Under the pieces are notes generated by a model. That model did no database searches. It saw only the letters and a list, made by a program, of their open reading frames with translations, and was not told the origin of the DNA. Below are positions 2,957 to 15,077 of a DNA stretch of 29,672 bases, piece by piece. The first letter of the stretch is position 1. Every line of letters starts with the position of its first letter. The translations under genes were made by a program, and so were the position numbers. This DNA comes from a virus, in IMG/VR virus record IMGVR_UViG_3300046758_000205, positions 1-29,672 of that record; one strand, given 5' to 3'.

Positions 2957-4278
2957 GCTTGATCCAATGCGCTTTGATAGTATTGCTCTTTGCCTATAGG
3001 ACTTAAACTATTCCATATATCTTTCATGTCTTGAATATTTCCTGAATTGCTTGTACCTACGTCATCTCTAAAGACTTGAAAACTAACTTCGTCAAGTAGG
3101 CCTTGATTATTTTGTAATGCATCTAGTCTCTCTCTTCTTGATAAAGTAGATGTTTGCGAACTGTAGCTCGATACAGTTGTATTTGTAATTGCACTACTAC
3201 TATTTGAATTTGGAAATGTTGAGTTTATTGCTCCAAATATCAATTGATCTAAAATACCAGCTTGAATTCCTTGTCCTTCTGCACTATTAATTATATCTCC
3301 AACATTATCAAACTCTAAATTATTGGCTAATTCTATTGTATTTTTTATTGTAGCAATGGTTCCTAGGTCAAATCTACCTGTTTCAATATCTCTAAATATT
3401 GACGTAAATCCATCTACTAAGCCGCCTCTTCCAAATATATTAGTAATTCGTCCACCGCCGCCTTCAACAGTCAAAGGACTAGGTGTAACATCGTAATGAG
3501 ATGGATTAGCAAATCCACTAGGATTATCTTGACTAGTAGTACCTCTTCCATATAATACAGATTCGTAAGCAACTCGCATAGTATTAGTCATAAAATTACT
3601 TGCACTTTGTTCTACTCTATCATGCGCAAAAGTTTCTATTAATGGATTTACTAAAGTCATGCTAGTAAATACATTGTTTACGTTTGTGCTATGTAATTGA
3701 TTAATTGTAATTGAATTAAAGAAAGGAACATTATTAAATTTTCTTCTGTCTAAACCATGATTGTATGTATTTGCAAATTCGCCTTTGTAATGATCAACAG
3801 GAGAATTATTATAAGGCAAAGGAACACTTGTGTCAGGTTGTCCGTTACTAGTAGTGTTTGCATAGTTAGGATCTTGATAATACCATCTAAAATAACTTTC
3901 CCATAACAATGTTGTAAGTCCTGCATTATCATCATGGAACACAAATTCTACAGGATCGTAATTTACCTTTGTCTGTACAACTTTTTTTCTATTATACATA
4001 TTCAAGGTAGATGTATCAAAAGTATACGAAGGCATTGAAGCTGATTCAACTAAAAGATTAAATTCGTTTTTTTGTAATTGATCGTATACACCTAATTCTA
4101 ATAATGCAGTACGATTTACATCAAATACTACATGATAAAGAAACTTAACTTTGGGCGTAAGACGTAGATTATTCCTAATATACAATGCACTTGCATGTGC
4201 AAAATCTCCTAGGTTTCCTTTAGGATTTCCTAAAGCATTACTAAAGTTATCAAAATAATTTGCTATAAAACTGGCCAT
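2953..4278 (-). CDS. Tail-tube-fold baseplate/tube-initiator-like structural protein
   Basis: At 441 aa this is longer than tail tube gp19 but shows a related core. Residues about 41-165 contain PKVKFLYHVVFDVNRTAL, LVESASMPSYTFDTSTLNMY, NRKKVVQTKVNYDPVEFVFH and DDNAGLTTLLWESYFRWYY. The "sensor strand, kinked Pro, long strand, D-D/N, W" order is what gp19, gp48 and gp54 share, so the best guess is a tube-cap or tube-initiator protein (gp48/gp54-like). The C-terminal 200 residues are Asn/Ser/Thr-rich and end in a helical part. It follows gp19 after a terminator and a late promoter box. There is no clear Shine-Dalgarno sequence, and ATG lies five bases after the box, so the message may be leaderless. 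The exact T4 counterpart is uncertain. Confidence 0.65.
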   Translation of the reverse strand: MASFIANYFDNFSNALGNPKGNLGDFAHASALYIRNNLRLTPKVKFLYHVVFDVNRTALLELGVYDQLQKNEFNLLVESASMPSYTFDTSTLNMYNRKKVVQTKVNYDPVEFVFHDDNAGLTTLLWESYFRWYYQDPNYANTTSNGQPDTSVPLPYNNSPVDHYKGEFANTYNHGLDRRKFNNVPFFNSITINQLHSTNVNNVFTSMTLVNPLIETFAHDRVEQSASNFMTNTMRVAYESVLYGRGTTSQDNPSGFANPSHYDVTPSPLTVEGGGGRITNIFGRGGLVDGFTSIFRDIETGRFDLGTIATIKNTIELANNLEFDNVGDIINSAEGQGIQAGILDQLIFGAINSTFPNSNSSSAITNTTVSSYSSQTSTLSRRERLDALQNNQGLLDEVSFQVFRDDVGTSNSGNIQDMKDIWNSLSPIGKEQYYQSALDQA

Positions 4279-4282
4279 ATTG

Positions 4283-4290
4283 TATTTATC
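4283..4290 (-). promoter_or_regulatory. Late promoter box GATAAATA immediately before the tube-like gene
   Basis: The minus strand reads GATAAATACAAT directly followed by ATG 4278. With T4 late spacing (+1 six bases after the box), transcription would begin at about 4277, at the start codon itself. It follows the gp19 terminator by four bases. Confidence 0.6.
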
Positions 4291-4294
4291 TCAT

Positions 4295-4322
4295 AAAAAA
4301 AAGGAGCATACGCTCCTTTTTT
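4295..4322 (-). terminator. Intrinsic terminator after gp19 (possibly bidirectional)
   Basis: GGAGC (4303-4307) pairs with GCTCC (4312-4316) around a four-base loop. On the minus strand the stem is followed by eight T and preceded by six A, a classical rho-independent terminator. It sits between the gp19 stop at 4346 and the next late promoter box. The A and T flanks would make it work in either direction. Confidence 0.85.
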
Positions 4323-8974: not shown

Positions 8975-9729
8975 CCAATTAAGAAACCGTACCCTGTACC
9001 GCCTGCTAATGCTGTAGCTAATTCCATGTCAAGTTTTTCCATTTCACCTTGTGCTTCAGCTTTAAGAGAATCGCCATTGAGTGTTGTTCCACCGCCTGGT
9101 CCTGCAATAGTTGAGAATTTACTACGTGCTTCACCTAACATATATTTACAACTAGCTAGTGTATAATCTTTACACCACTGATTTGCTTTGTAATCTTTTA
9201 ATATTTCAAAGTCTGGTCTATAGTTGTAACAATATAACAATGCTTCTTCATCAGCTCTTGGACGTTGTAATATAGTTAATTTTTTTGTGCTTGTATTCCA
9301 AGTAAATTCAATAAAACTACCAAACATGCGTCCTACTAATTCTTGTTGTTGTGCAAAGAAATCATAAGTTGCAAGGCCGCCAATTCCTGAACCTGCTAAC
9401 AAATACGTATTAGTGTATGCAAGATTAAAAGGTTCAAACAAACTACCGCCATCTGCACTACCGCCTAATCTGCTGCCAACACTACGTCTATAAATTTTAC
9501 GCACTTCAATTATTTCGTTTGGCAATGTATATACGTTTTTATCTTCTTCAAACCCAATTGTTATATAGCTTTCTTCAACAGCGTTTTCTGTTCGTTGGCG
9601 ATATCTGTTTAGTGCCTTTTGTAGGGCAGTTTTATAATGTACAGGATCTAATTCAACATCGACCATTCCTCCGCCTAGGAAGGTTTCGACATAGTCGTAT
9701 ATTTCTTGATATGCAGTTGCGTTACTCAT
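8971..9729 (-). CDS. 13: Neck protein (T4 gp13-like)
   Basis: The 252-aa product resembles the gp13 neck proteins of marine T4-like phages, which with gp14 form the collar between head and tail. Visible parts are an N-terminal helix AYQEIYDYVETFLGG, VDVELDPVHYKTALQKALN and RYRQRTENAVEESYITIGFE, the strand-turn NVYTLPNEIIEVRKIYRRSV (about 65-84), the motif FEPFNLAYTNTYLLAG, LATYDFFAQQQELVGRMFGS, and a C-terminal helix KAEAQGEMEKLDMELATALA. The start has GGAGATG nine bases upstream. It is divergent from gp14 with only 37 bases between start codons, both served by a shared palindromic promoter. Assignment as gp13 rests on motif recognition and on the gp14 neighbour. Confidence 0.72.
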   Translation of the reverse strand: MSNATAYQEIYDYVETFLGGGMVDVELDPVHYKTALQKALNRYRQRTENAVEESYITIGFEEDKNVYTLPNEIIEVRKIYRRSVGSRLGGSADGGSLFEPFNLAYTNTYLLAGSGIGGLATYDFFAQQQELVGRMFGSFIEFTWNTSTKKLTILQRPRADEEALLYCYNYRPDFEILKDYKANQWCKDYTLASCKYMLGEARSKFSTIAGPGGGTTLNGDSLKAEAQGEMEKLDMELATALAGGTGYGFLIG

Positions 9730-9745
9730 AGTTCATCTCCAATAG

Positions 9746-9753
9746 TATTTATC
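9746..9753 (-). promoter_or_regulatory. Late promoter box GATAAATA for gp13 (left half of palindrome)
   Basis: It forms the minus-strand half of the palindrome TATTTATCGATAAATA (9746-9761). Late spacing predicts +1 near 9740, giving an 11-base leader that begins with GGAGATG, just enough for a ribosome site before ATG 9729. Confidence 0.65.
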
Positions 9754-9761
9754 GATAAATA
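9754..9761 (+). promoter_or_regulatory. Late promoter box GATAAATA for gp14 (right half of palindrome)
   Basis: It forms the plus-strand half of the palindrome. Late spacing predicts +1 at 9767, the A of the gp14 ATG. No Shine-Dalgarno sequence lies upstream, so a leaderless message is predicted. Confidence 0.65.
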
Positions 9762-9766
9762 TACGT

Positions 9767-10921
9767 ATGCCAAAGCTAAGTTTATATAGACCACATAAGT
9801 CAAATGATTATACGTTTTTAGATAATTCTATTTACGAAATGTTCACGGTCGGCGGTACAGATTTTATGATACATAAGTATATTGGGACAAAAAATCCTGA
9901 TGCTGATGATGCTACTTCCGATCAACCACAATACGATGCAGTTAGTGAAACAAACATACAAGATTTATTGTTTCTTGAAAATAGAGATCGAAAGTATGAT
10001 AAAGATGTATACACATTACGTGGGCATTACAACGTACAAGATAATGATTTTGATTTAAGTCAATTTGGATTATTTTTAAGTAACGATACATTATTCTTGA
10101 CTGTACATATTAACAGTAGTGTAAAAACAATTGGTCGTAAACTAATGCCAGGAGACGTAATAGAATTGCCGCATTTAATTGACGAATATGCAGCAAACGA
10201 ATTAGATATTGCTTTAAAAAGATTTTATGTAATTGAAGACATTACTAGAGCAAGCGAAGGATTTAGCCAAACTTGGTATCCACATTTGTATAGAATAAAA
10301 GTAAAACAAATCTATGATGGACAAGAGTATAAGGATATCCTAGATTTACCAGCAGCAGAAGGTAGTGATAAAACTCTTAGAGATGTCCTAAGTACTTTTG
10401 AAATTGAAATGCAAATAAACGATGCTGTTGTTCAACAGGCAAATGATGATATTAAATATGCAGGATATAGTACTGAACAATTTTATACAGTACAAGTAGA
10501 AGATGACGGTAGCGTTAGTCTTGTTACTGTTGATACTAACGAAATTGATGTTTCAAATGGCATTGAAGCAGATAGACTATTTCAAACGCCACTTGCAAGC
10601 GGCTACTTAGGATATCTTGTTGGAGATGGCATACCACCTAATGGAGCACCGTTTGGCGTTGGATCTACATTTCCACTTGTATCAATTGAAGGTGATTATT
10701 TTTTACGTACAGATTTATTGCCTAATAGATTATTTAGATATAGCGGCAGTTCGTGGTCAAAGGTTGAAGATAATGTACGAGCAGAACTTTCAAATACAGA
10801 TACTAGAAATACCCAACTAGGAACATTTATTAACAACACTACAATAAACGAAATATCTGGTGAAGAAGTAGTTGAAAGACAAGCACTAAGTAAAGCTCTA
10901 AGAGCAAAGGCAGATAACTAA
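9767..10921 (+). CDS. 14: Neck protein (T4 gp14-like)
   Basis: The 384-aa product opens with LSLYRPHKSNDYTFLDNSIY and VGGTDFMIHKYIG, then QDLLFLENRDRKYDKDVYTL, then the neck core FDLSQFGLFLSNDTLFLTV (about 104-122), GDVIELPHLIDEYA and RFYVIEDITRASEGFSQTWY. T4 gp14 shows the same order (a FG-x-x-V/L-x-x-D/N strand, then a GD-x-I-x-x-P strand). From about residue 220 there is an added region absent from T4 gp14, including a small W/Y-rich module GDYFLRTD...LFRYSGSSW at about 308-331. Translation ends in a TAATG overlap with gp15. The N-terminal Met directly follows a late promoter box, and the protein's conserved start argues against a later start codon. Confidence 0.72.
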   Translation: MPKLSLYRPHKSNDYTFLDNSIYEMFTVGGTDFMIHKYIGTKNPDADDATSDQPQYDAVSETNIQDLLFLENRDRKYDKDVYTLRGHYNVQDNDFDLSQFGLFLSNDTLFLTVHINSSVKTIGRKLMPGDVIELPHLIDEYAANELDIALKRFYVIEDITRASEGFSQTWYPHLYRIKVKQIYDGQEYKDILDLPAAEGSDKTLRDVLSTFEIEMQINDAVVQQANDDIKYAGYSTEQFYTVQVEDDGSVSLVTVDTNEIDVSNGIEADRLFQTPLASGYLGYLVGDGIPPNGAPFGVGSTFPLVSIEGDYFLRTDLLPNRLFRYSGSSWSKVEDNVRAELSNTDTRNTQLGTFINNTTINEISGEEVVERQALSKALRAKADN

Positions 10922-12687
10922 TGCAATATTTTTATGACGGCCAAGTAAGACGATATGTAACACAAATAGTACGAGCATTTAGTAATTTTAGCTACAAAGA
11001 CGGTGATGGAGATCTAAGACAGGTACCTGTAACTTATGGAGATCTTACAAGACAAGTTGCTAGTATTATGAAAGACAACAGTGAAAATAAGATACCTAGT
11101 GCTCCACGTATGGCTGTATATATTACTGGTTTAGAAATGGACAGAAGTCGAACAAGCGATAGTAGTTTTGTAAGTAAAGTTAATTTACGTGAAAAAAAGT
11201 TTGACGAAGATACTAGTTCATATTTGCAAGAACAAGCCAAAGGTTATACTGTAGAACGATTGCATCCTAGTCCATTTACATTAAGCGTAAATGTAGATTT
11301 ATGGAGCACTAGCACAGATCAAAAATTACAATTATTAGAACAAATATTAATGTTGTTTAATCCTAGTTTAGAATTTCAAACAAATGATAATTATGTTGAC
11401 TGGACAAGTTTAACCACATTGTTTATGGAAAACATAGAATTTAGTTCAAGAACAGTGCCGGTTGGAACTGAAAGCGAAATTGATATTTGCACTATGGGCT
11501 TTACTACGCCAATTTATATTTCGCCTCCAACAAAAGTTAAAAAACTAGGTATTATTACAAAAATAATTACCGGTATTGTTAACAGCGATACAGGAGATTT
11601 AGAATTAGACGGCTTTACACCCGATCCTGATAGCGAAGCTGCATTAACACCAGAAGGTTACATTCCTGGGCAATCAACAGGCGAAACTGGTTTAGGAACA
11701 ACTTTAAATCCAGTTATTAACAGCTACAGAAATTATGGTGTAAACATAAACAACGAAATAGCATTGTTAGCAACTAATAAATTATTGCATCTACCTGATG
11801 TTCACTGGTTCGATGTTATAGAAGCAGAACTACCTTCTCAATACGAACCAGGTATAACTCAAATAGAGCTTAGAAGAAGTTATTTTACTACAAATGTAAG
11901 AGGTACAATAACCGTAAATAACAATAACACAACAGAACTGTTAATTAATTATGACGAAGATACTTTGCCTAGCAACACACTAATTGAAGGTCCGGCGAGA
12001 AATGCAGCACAGTATGGAACCATTGATTATATAATAAACCCAAGGACATTTAATCCTACTAGTGTTAAGGTGCCCGGTGTAAGAATTTTAGTTTTAGACG
12101 CTATTGGTAATGCTACTTCACGTAATGTTGTTATTAACGGAACTACTAACAGAATCGATACATATGTAGATTATTATATTAATGAAATAACTAAACCTAG
12201 CAATGTTAACAGTGGCACAGCATTTCCAGGATCTCCGAATGTAGGAGATTTATTTTACAGAACTGATGAAGAAAAGTTATATTTTTATCAACAATCTTGG
12301 TGGCTTGCAGATAAAGTTACTAGTGCAGAAGTTACAGTTAACGGTGAAACTGTTGGTGCAACAATAGAAAACATAGGAGAACAAGTTTCTTTAATTTTAG
12401 CAAGTAACATATCTCCTGATGATAAAGTACAATATACTCTGCATTACAACGACGACGGTGCCGATGCTTGGAAAAATTCTGATAACACAGATTTCTTTGC
12501 TGATCAAAATGATATTGTAGAATGGACAGGATCAAAATGGACAATTGTGTATGATGCAAGTGAATACACTACACCTGTTTTTACAACCAATTTAACAACT
12601 GGAGTACAATACGTATATAGTGATAACATGTGGGTAGAAAGTATTGACGGTTACTATCCAAAAGGTACATGGAGTATCCTTTTATAA
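10921..12687 (+). CDS. 15: Tail terminator / proximal sheath stabiliser (T4 gp15-like)
   Basis: The N-terminus QYFYDGQVRRYVTQIVRAFS and RQVPVTYGDLTRQVASIM parallels T4 gp15 (YFYN..FRRY...F.N, then RVPITY). The next regions SAPRMAVYITGLEMDRSRT, RLHPSPFTLSVNVDLWSTS and LLEQILMLFNPSLEF also match gp15 order (NPSP..., EQILPYF.P). gp15 caps the tail tube and sheath and binds the neck. T4 gp15 is 272 aa; this one is 588 aa, with extra domains beyond about residue 250. These include GDLFYRTDEEKLYFYQQSWW at about 442-461 and NDIVEWTGSKWTIVY near 530, small modules like those in gp14 and gp18. It is coupled to gp14 by TAATG at 10921. Assignment is good for the first 220 residues. Confidence 0.82.
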   Translation: MQYFYDGQVRRYVTQIVRAFSNFSYKDGDGDLRQVPVTYGDLTRQVASIMKDNSENKIPSAPRMAVYITGLEMDRSRTSDSSFVSKVNLREKKFDEDTSSYLQEQAKGYTVERLHPSPFTLSVNVDLWSTSTDQKLQLLEQILMLFNPSLEFQTNDNYVDWTSLTTLFMENIEFSSRTVPVGTESEIDICTMGFTTPIYISPPTKVKKLGIITKIITGIVNSDTGDLELDGFTPDPDSEAALTPEGYIPGQSTGETGLGTTLNPVINSYRNYGVNINNEIALLATNKLLHLPDVHWFDVIEAELPSQYEPGITQIELRRSYFTTNVRGTITVNNNNTTELLINYDEDTLPSNTLIEGPARNAAQYGTIDYIINPRTFNPTSVKVPGVRILVLDAIGNATSRNVVINGTTNRIDTYVDYYINEITKPSNVNSGTAFPGSPNVGDLFYRTDEEKLYFYQQSWWLADKVTSAEVTVNGETVGATIENIGEQVSLILASNISPDDKVQYTLHYNDDGADAWKNSDNTDFFADQNDIVEWTGSKWTIVYDASEYTTPVFTTNLTTGVQYVYSDNMWVESIDGYYPKGTWSILL

Positions 12688-12700: not shown

Positions 12701-13141
12701 ATGGATAAGATAATCTGTAGCGGTGCGTTGTTTTATAGCCTAACAACAGAAAGATTTTTACTGTTATATAGAACTAAGAAAAGCACTAACAATACTAATT
12801 GTTGGGGTTTAGTTGGCGGTAAAAACGAAGGCAGTGAAACTCCTTGGCAAGGACTACAAAGAGAAATAGAAGAAGAAATTGGATTCATTCCAGAAATTAA
12901 AAAAACAATTCCTTTAGAAAGTTTTATTAGCAGTGATAATAATTTTAGCTTCCATACGTATCTATGCTTAATCAATGAAGAATTTATACCAAAGCTAAAC
13001 AAAGAACATAGTAGTTATGCTTGGTGTAGCTTTAGTCACTGGCCAAAACCTTTGCATACAGGTTTAGCAAATACATTACGCAGTAAAACTAACAAAAATA
13101 AATTAGAAACAGTTATACAAGTTGCACACTTGATTTCTTAA
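12701..13141 (+). CDS. Nudix hydrolase
   Basis: The Nudix box is complete at residues 40-62: GKNEGSE, seven residues, then REIEEEIGF, fitting G-x5-E-x7-REU-x-EE-x-GU exactly. The enzyme would hydrolyse a nucleoside diphosphate linked to another group; the substrate (damaged dNTP, NDP-sugar, capped RNA) cannot be read from the box. I place the start at ATG 12701 (MDKIICSGALFY, 146 aa), not at an in-frame ATG 57 bases upstream, because the upstream codons lie inside gp15 and Nudix proteins normally begin just before this strand. There is no Shine-Dalgarno sequence; the late-type box upstream predicts a leaderless message. The last 29 bases overlap the opposite-strand glycosyltransferase-like gene. 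Confidence 0.88.
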   Translation: MDKIICSGALFYSLTTERFLLLYRTKKSTNNTNCWGLVGGKNEGSETPWQGLQREIEEEIGFIPEIKKTIPLESFISSDNNFSFHTYLCLINEEFIPKLNKEHSSYAWCSFSHWPKPLHTGLANTLRSKTNKNKLETVIQVAHLIS

Positions 13142-15077
13142 ATTCTTTTTCAAGCCAATCAAAATCATTTATTCTACGCAAATCTTCAGGGGAATCGGCA
13201 TACTTTTCACCGTAGTTTTTGCCGTGAATAGCCCCTGCAATTGCGTATTCTCCAAATGGCTTATCTGCACCTCGAGTACACCATGCTTCTAGTCTAAAAT
13301 TCGTTTCGTCTTCTTTTTGCCTATGTATTGTTTTACTTGCTAACTTTACACATTCTCTAAAGCCACTACGCCATGCACTAAACGGATCTGTGTTAAAGGC
13401 AGTAGTATTACTCATTACTTCTATTCCTTTGAACTTATTACTAATACTAGTAGTCATATCACTGCTATACACATCCATATTTTTTGTAAGACGTGTTGGT
13501 AATAGTTTTACACCACCATATCCGTAGACTAAGTTGTTAATTGGATTGTAACTACGCCAAACATGCACAGTGTTTTTACCATCAATGTCATAATGCGCAA
13601 TTTGATAATCAAAATTAAAATTATCTATTATATTTGCATCGCCGTCTACTACCCAAAACATTTCAGTCTCTGCTGCTTTTGCAGCCATAATATGTGCTTG
13701 ATGAATACCTTTAATACCGTGTACACGATGTATTACTCTATCAGGAAATTGTTCTACAAGTTTTTTAAAATTTTCATCTGCATTAGGTTCGTTATAACTT
13801 ATAAACACTATGTCATACAGAGACGGTGTTGTTGCTTGTATGTCGTGTTCTTTTTTATTTGCAAAAAATCTATATTCAAATTCTTTTCTGCTTATTCTTA
13901 AATTCTTACTAATTAAAGCTAGGCCATCATAGTACATATTATTTTTAAAAATGTGATGTATATTTCTATTAAAAGAATCGTGATGACTTATGTAAAAATT
14001 AAAGTTAAAATCATCTTTAATGTTTAAATCAGAATAAACCATCCAGAACATATCTTCTTCTATTTCGTTACAAGCATTCATATAATCTTTATAAGAATGT
14101 ACTGCCCATTTTTTAAAACTTTTTGGATAACTTGCTACTATGTCTAATTCATTTTTTGATACATAAAATCTGTGTTCTATTTCTTTTTTAGAAACTTTTT
14201 TATCACGGGGTAATAATACTATACCGTCTCTGTGTTCGCCATTTAGAAATACTTGTACAACATTCTTATTTTGATAAGATACATGATAATCAAAATTGAA
14301 ATCTTCTGCAACTTCTACGTCACTTGGAATAGCCCAGAACATTTCTGTCTGACAATGTTCTAAAGCATTTTCATAATCGCTATAACTATCTACTTTAAAT
14401 TTTTCATAAGGTACAGGATCGCTTGCAATGACTTTTATTTGTTTTTTGTTTGCATAAAATCTATAATCTAATTCTCTCTTGTTAAAATTATAATTCTTTG
14501 GAATCAAACAAACGCCATCCATCATATCACTACTACCGTTACCAAAGACGTGTATATTATCTATACTCCAGTAATCAGGCTTGTAGTTAAATTTAAATGT
14601 ATCTCTAACAATTACATTATTAGGCACAGCCCAAAATAGATCTGTAGTAGATTTTTCTTGTGCTTCTAAAATGTCTTCAGGGGAGTTAATATAAAAATAA
14701 TCAAATTTATCTTTGCCATTATATATGTCATAAAAACATGCAATATAATCTGATTTTACTGTTTTGTAATCGCCTTGTTTTGTTGGTACTAATCTAACTG
14801 TGTTGTATGATTTAACTTTTTTACTATCTTTGTATACCTGAGGAAAAGCATGTATCGCAAGTTCTTGCCCTATTGCAGGTTTATAATACCAAGGAAAACT
14901 TTGTAATACTTCTACATTTGGATCAACTAACCAAACATATTCTTTACTGCTTTCCCATTTGCAAACTTCTTCCTCACTGTTTACAACAGGAAATTGTGTT
15001 AAGATATGATTTTTTAAATAGTCTTGTCCGTTATGTAGATGCTGACCAAATAAATCAAACTTATCAAATATGTTCAT
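13113..15077 (-). CDS. Repeat-containing glycosyltransferase-like protein (654 aa)
   Basis: About five copies of a 100-130-residue unit are visible. The core is FWxVxxDxxIxDDFNFDYxI followed by a hydrophobic VHVF strand and DGxxLLP. Copies start near residues 48, 148, 247, 344 and 473. Only the last has the full VVDGDANI (476-483), with a D-G-D like the metal-binding DxD of GT-A glycosyltransferases. It is preceded by DIVFISYNEPNADENFKKL (422-440) and HGIKGIHQAHIMAAKAAET, a GT2-like nucleotide-sugar-binding half. Earlier copies have DPN, PNN, PSD or YSD there. The protein probably transfers a sugar, with inactive repeats serving for scaffold or binding. It overlaps the start-side glycosyltransferase by 14 bases and the Nudix gene tail to tail. 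Acceptor and donor are unknown. Confidence 0.72.
   Translation of the reverse strand: MNIFDKFDLFGQHLHNGQDYLKNHILTQFPVVNSEEEVCKWESSKEYVWLVDPNVEVLQSFPWYYKPAIGQELAIHAFPQVYKDSKKVKSYNTVRLVPTKQGDYKTVKSDYIACFYDIYNGKDKFDYFYINSPEDILEAQEKSTTDLFWAVPNNVIVRDTFKFNYKPDYWSIDNIHVFGNGSSDMMDGVCLIPKNYNFNKRELDYRFYANKKQIKVIASDPVPYEKFKVDSYSDYENALEHCQTEMFWAIPSDVEVAEDFNFDYHVSYQNKNVVQVFLNGEHRDGIVLLPRDKKVSKKEIEHRFYVSKNELDIVASYPKSFKKWAVHSYKDYMNACNEIEEDMFWMVYSDLNIKDDFNFNFYISHHDSFNRNIHHIFKNNMYYDGLALISKNLRISRKEFEYRFFANKKEHDIQATTPSLYDIVFISYNEPNADENFKKLVEQFPDRVIHRVHGIKGIHQAHIMAAKAAETEMFWVVDGDANIIDNFNFDYQIAHYDIDGKNTVHVWRSYNPINNLVYGYGGVKLLPTRLTKNMDVYSSDMTTSISNKFKGIEVMSNTTAFNTDPFSAWRSGFRECVKLASKTIHRQKEDETNFRLEAWCTRGADKPFGEYAIAGAIHGKNYGEKYADSPEDLRRINDFDWLEKEFKKSSVQLV

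Follow-up and report, generated by a model that had tools for sequence, protein, structure and literature searches.

The window analysed here, meaning the whole 29,672-base IMG/VR virus record, which is probably a fragment (36.6% GC), carries between two divergently oriented genes the sequence TATTTATCGATAAATA, composed of two abutting copies of GATAAATA, one on each strand (Table 1). It was verified that, as the initial annotation had described, this 16-bp sequence is identical to its own reverse complement and that 37 bases separate the start codons of gp13 (ATG at 9729, minus strand) and gp14 (ATG at 9767, plus strand). The palindrome is present as a single copy in the window, while shuffled sequence is expected to hold 0.05 copies with up to two mismatches. 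The box GATAAATA itself was counted seven times versus 2.66 expected, a number reached in only 1 of 100 shuffles; two of these copies are the halves of the palindrome, and the remaining five are all found on the minus strand, 4–26 nt ahead of an ORF. Additionally, a terminator-like hairpin, AAAGGAGCGTATGCTCCTTT, followed by a T-run, was observed at 4295–4322 (minus strand); it immediately precedes the short-spaced late box that serves the tail-tube-like gene of 441 aa.

Table 1. Features of the gp13/gp14 region and of a second short-spaced box in the window
Feature	Positions	Strand	Remarks
Late-promoter box GATAAATA, short-spaced	4283..4290	-	tail-tube-like gene (441 aa) has its ATG at 4278, 4 nt after the box
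gp13, head-tail adaptor Ad2, 252 aa	8971..9729	-	phrog_211 (PHROG 211), E 1.7e-30
GGAG Shine-Dalgarno of gp13	9737..9740	-	begins at predicted +1
Palindrome TATTTATCGATAAATA	9746..9761	.	two abutting boxes; found exactly in 17 of 92 distinct gaps
Late-promoter box GATAAATA for gp13	9746..9753	-	predicted +1 at 9740; core in 92/92 distinct gaps
Late-promoter box GATAAATA for gp14/gp15	9754..9761	+	predicted +1 at 9767; core in 92/92; TAAATA columns 100% conserved
Spacer, right box to gp14 ATG, 5 nt	9762..9766	+	no Shine-Dalgarno; length 5 in 77/92 distinct gaps
gp14, probable neck protein by synteny, 384 aa	9767..10921	+	phrog_11591; predicted leaderless
gp15, tail sheath stabilizer, 588 aa	10921..12687	+	Pfam PF16724, E 1.2e-21

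The middle gene was given the name gp14 because it stands between gp13 and gp15, and its homology to T4 gp14 is weakly indicated. Its product matches phrog_11591 and not phrog_679 or phrog_460; an hhalign comparison with T4 gp14 that used four sequences gave a weak match (E 0.03, probability 1.6%, 74 columns), the same comparison of the window gp14 with T4 or P-SSM2 gp14 alone did not succeed, and its AlphaFold model reached a pLDDT of 52.6. The gp15 ATG and the gp14 stop codon share one base. In agreement with the earlier proposal of an inverted block, gp14/gp15 (9767–12687, plus strand) is reversed with respect to the colinear 13-14-15 order of T4, P-SSM2, S-PM2 and HTVC008M. Beside this block, a 654-aa ORF (13113–15077, minus strand) had no PHROG match. 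In gp14 protein comparisons, the jumbo phages Atu_ph07 (42% identity) and Phosso (37%) were the closest cultured relatives, followed at a greater distance by PA5oct/MIJ3 and the RaK2-like phages. The divergent arrangement of gp13 and gp14 was also found in Atu_ph07, Phosso and every fetched relative holding both genes, while in RaK2, 121Q and CBB the gp14-gp15 pair diverges instead from a ClpA-like gene.

The late promoters of T4, TATAAATA, belong to the gp55/gp33/gp45 system. Both window boxes present the identical 7-base core, ATAAATA, ahead of structural genes, at –12 to –6 in a numbering that assumes the T4 start site, and differ from the T4 sequence by a G instead of a T at –13. Since position –13 is poorly conserved in most T4-like phages (PMC1524935), this G was not counted as excluding a T4-type late promoter. 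Moreover, the lineage encodes a gp55-type late sigma factor, whose gene was detected in a lineage contig (G001, E 4.9e-14), in Atu_ph07 (1.7e-14) and in Phosso (3.1e-12), and is also found in MIJ3.

The conservation of the gap was evaluated in loci fetched by protein similarity, eighty with gp14 and eighty with gp13. After removal of identical gaps, 92 distinct gp13/gp14 gaps remained, which were not selected for the palindrome and include those of the window, Atu_ph07 and Phosso; they share ancestry, so that they are not phylogenetically independent, and most of the loci are metagenomic fragments. Both cores, TAAATA rightward and TATTTA leftward, were found in 92 of the 92 gaps, which bears out the claim of back-to-back late boxes, one for each gene. 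The exact palindrome, on the other hand, was found in 17. Therefore, it is the divergent promoter pair that is conserved, and the palindrome represents one compact packing of it; its previously proposed role as a functional unit was not supported, because 75 gaps keep the divergent pair without it, an outcome that the initial annotation had itself named as refuting, and the palindrome was likewise rejected as a conserved unit. The number of bases between the cores ranges from 2 to 21 (2–5 in 41 gaps, 7–10 in 44 and 14–21 in 7), an arrangement in which these pairs differ from T4 late promoters. Core distances were seen to cluster near 4 and 9 bp, and in the gaps with 7–10 bp between cores the symmetry often reaches past the boxes (TCGTTACGA, TCCTACGGA, TCGCTAGCGA).

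It could be argued that the sequence is a functionless AT-rich palindrome arisen by chance, considering the GC content of the window (36.6%) and the occurrence of the same 16-mer in unrelated contexts, some of them coding, among the matches listed. Indeed, when IMG/VR loci were selected by the pattern itself, 36 exact palindromes lay outside the gp13/gp14 gap among the matches listed, some between other divergent genes. However, 75 of the 111 exact palindromes were located in this one gap, again among the matches listed, and the retention of both cores in all of the 92 gaps contradicts this explanation, which is hardly credible.

Alternatively, the palindrome could be the operator at which a dimeric DNA-binding protein regulates both genes, in which case its likeness to promoter boxes would be secondary. 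The symmetry past the boxes (TCG...CGA, TCC...GGA), seen even with boxes 7–10 bp apart, is in line with this hypothesis, as is the third flanking base, for which 36 of the 51 spaced gaps show a match between the two sides versus 28.5 in shuffled ones, a figure uncorrected for shared ancestry. Covariation of the flanks as inverted repeats, where the boxes are spaced, was nevertheless rejected, being a weak excess at one position with the same lack of correction. A half-site distance that varies from 2 to 21 bp, instead of being fixed, would hardly be tolerable for a dimer site, and the half-site is also found singly ahead of other structural genes, which makes the operator highly improbable.

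The distance between the right box and gp14, missed by the initial annotation, varies far less. The late boxes of T4 are located at –13 to –6 (PMC1524935), so that the sixth nucleotide past the box is +1. In the 92 gaps, the distance from box to gp14 ATG was 5 nt in 77, 4 nt in 2 and 8 nt in 6, the other 7 being leadered. The start codon was ATG in all of the 103 short-spaced distinct gaps. With the fixed 5-nt spacing, transcription is predicted to begin at the gp14 start codon itself. Since a spacer of 4–8 nt leaves no room for a transcribed Shine-Dalgarno (SD), and the ATG falls on the predicted +1 in 77 of the 92 gaps with no SD, the gp14 mRNA should be leaderless. Across these 77, every column of TAAATA and of ATGCC reaches a conservation of 1.00, and columns more than 17 bases upstream mostly reach 0.3–0.6.

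The absence of an SD ahead of gp14 could also indicate that only the left box works, in which case the right one would persist through chance or common descent and transcription of gp14 would start elsewhere. This would be in accordance with T4, where the late genes of the scanned stretch (74–115 kb) are leadered, with spacings of at least 14 nt that give room for an SD. Nevertheless, the right TAAATA core is invariant in divergent relatives and its spacing to the ATG is nearly fixed; the upstream gene, gp13, is antiparallel; and a TAAATA box also precedes gp14 in RaK2, CBB and MIJ3. Thus, a silent right box is very unlikely.

On the gp13 side, the SD is found at the same edge. In the 92 gaps, it starts 5 nt after the box in 46, 6–8 nt in 35, 4 nt in 7 and later in 4, with a minimum of 4. 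Transcription starting at that base would require such an edge, which could explain why the gp14 start codon and the gp13 SD both lie against it. The predicted 5′ end of the window gp13 mRNA is 5′-GGAGATGAACTATG. Taken together, these features suggest that the palindrome is very probably a compact form of a T4-type late promoter pair, lineage-conserved and divergent, with a predicted leaderless gp14-gp15 mRNA. In this mechanism, a phage late sigma of the gp55 type would bind either box and RNA would start at the sixth base after it; the leftward transcript would carry an 11-nt gp13 leader opening with the SD, and the first base of the rightward transcript would be the A of the gp14 ATG, from which gp14 would be translated in the leaderless form.

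The initial annotation had proposed that the gp13:gp14 ratio could be fixed by two polymerases competing for one shared site. Given the size of a polymerase footprint, two holoenzymes could hardly sit together on boxes 2–21 bp apart. Since the footprints would overlap at every spacing seen, and not only in the palindrome, mutual exclusion of the polymerases is likely in all relatives, as such a competition would need. Even so, a ratio set in this way is unlikely, considering that the window boxes are identical and predict no bias and that the pair is retained despite a roughly tenfold variation in spacing. The translation signals, in turn, differ far more than the boxes, gp13 being SD-led and gp14 predicted leaderless. 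As identical boxes give no bias, an imbalance between gp13 and gp14, if any, would more plausibly arise at translation than from box competition.

Leadered forms of gp14, with 20–28 nt from box to start codon, were observed in eight distinct gaps, and the leader state requires six changes on the gp14 tree, a quick tree with several open forks. Atu_ph07 and Phosso have a leader with an SD-like sequence ahead of gp14, and so do RaK2, 121Q, CBB and MIJ3, which are more distant; the leaderless state is probably derived for this reason. In four leadered loci, gp14 apparently starts with ATT, with GGAG 7 nt upstream (L053 4001, plus strand; L127 3942, L135 3932 and L154 1444, minus strand). The ATT occupies the position of the ATG of other members, no in-frame ATG, GTG or TTG lies between SD and ATT in these four loci, and they fall into three or more separate parts of the gp14 tree. 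Two leadered loci of the lineage, L052 and L194, keep ATG, and their SDs are weaker. A lineage-wide habit of ATT starts was not found, since this triplet follows GGAG no more often than several others do (703 kb).

AUU initiation is known for infC and, within T4 gene 26, at an internal start. The four ATT loci resemble these cases in their GGAG-preceded start and differ from them in that ATT is found only alongside a leader and a strong SD. Leaderless translation requires AUG and is opposed by initiation factor IF3, which likewise discriminates against AUU (PMC4611024). It is conceivable, although doubtful given the few loci, that gp14-gp15 initiation is kept under IF3 control, either by a leaderless AUG or by AUU with a leader and strong SD. 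If true, late genes would fall into two classes, one SD-led and the other IF3-sensitive, the latter responding to the state of the host translation machinery.

The short spacing is not restricted to gp14. When ATAAATA-to-ATG distances were surveyed in nine lineage contigs and the window (703 kb), they were bimodal, with 38 of 103 at 4–5 nt, 2 at 9–15 nt and the remainder mainly at 16–28 nt. An SD-like match was found for 46 of the 54 boxes located 12–32 nt from an ATG, and permuted heptamers in the same 703 kb produced no 5-nt peak. In cultured phages, compared with one uniform script on partial genomes, the 4–5 nt class comprised 8 of 14 cases in HTVC008M, 5 of 25 in Mosig, 2 of 8 in Melnitz-2 and 1 of 4 in P-SSM2, and none in the scanned stretches of T4 (0/14), S-PM2 (0/10), Atu_ph07 (0/2) and phiM12 (0/1). 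All short-spaced cases outside the lineage are at exactly 5 nt. Therefore, a large class at 5 nt from the ATG distinguishes these phages from the T4 stretch, and the single P-SSM2 case indicates that the class is not sharply confined.

The lambda repressor mRNA is an example of leaderless mRNA. The transcripts predicted here share with the leaderless mRNAs of bacteria and phages a 5′-terminal AUG with neither leader nor SD, and differ in that their prediction is systematic, following from the fixed distance of late promoter to ATG in phages of the T4 superfamily. Phage transcripts have been termed often leaderless (AR9; PMC5312081). In the open-access literature, in which prior reports may have been missed, no relevant report was found of late transcripts lacking a leader in T4-like phages, cyanophages or pelagiphages. 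Judging from the gaps compared, this marine T4-related lineage appears to hold back-to-back promoters so close that the gp14 message begins at its start codon. If a third or more of the box-preceded genes of marine T4-superfamily phages were leaderless, start-codon prediction and expression models would need changing, and translation would constitute a control layer dividing late genes into two classes. The prediction is sharp, as RNA should begin precisely at the A of the ATG, and HTVC008M, Mosig and Melnitz-2, which are in culture, carry the class.

Back-to-back pairs also recur at other loci. The cultured pelagiphage HTVC008M carries one, TATTTATATCTAAATA, between gp2 (minus strand) and gp4 (plus strand), at 5 nt on both sides (L315:18916-18943). 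Similarly, a second conserved divergent pair of the lineage (L283:2734-2762, L292:8041-8069 and L303:15861-15889) has both genes at 5 nt, with 17 bp between the cores.
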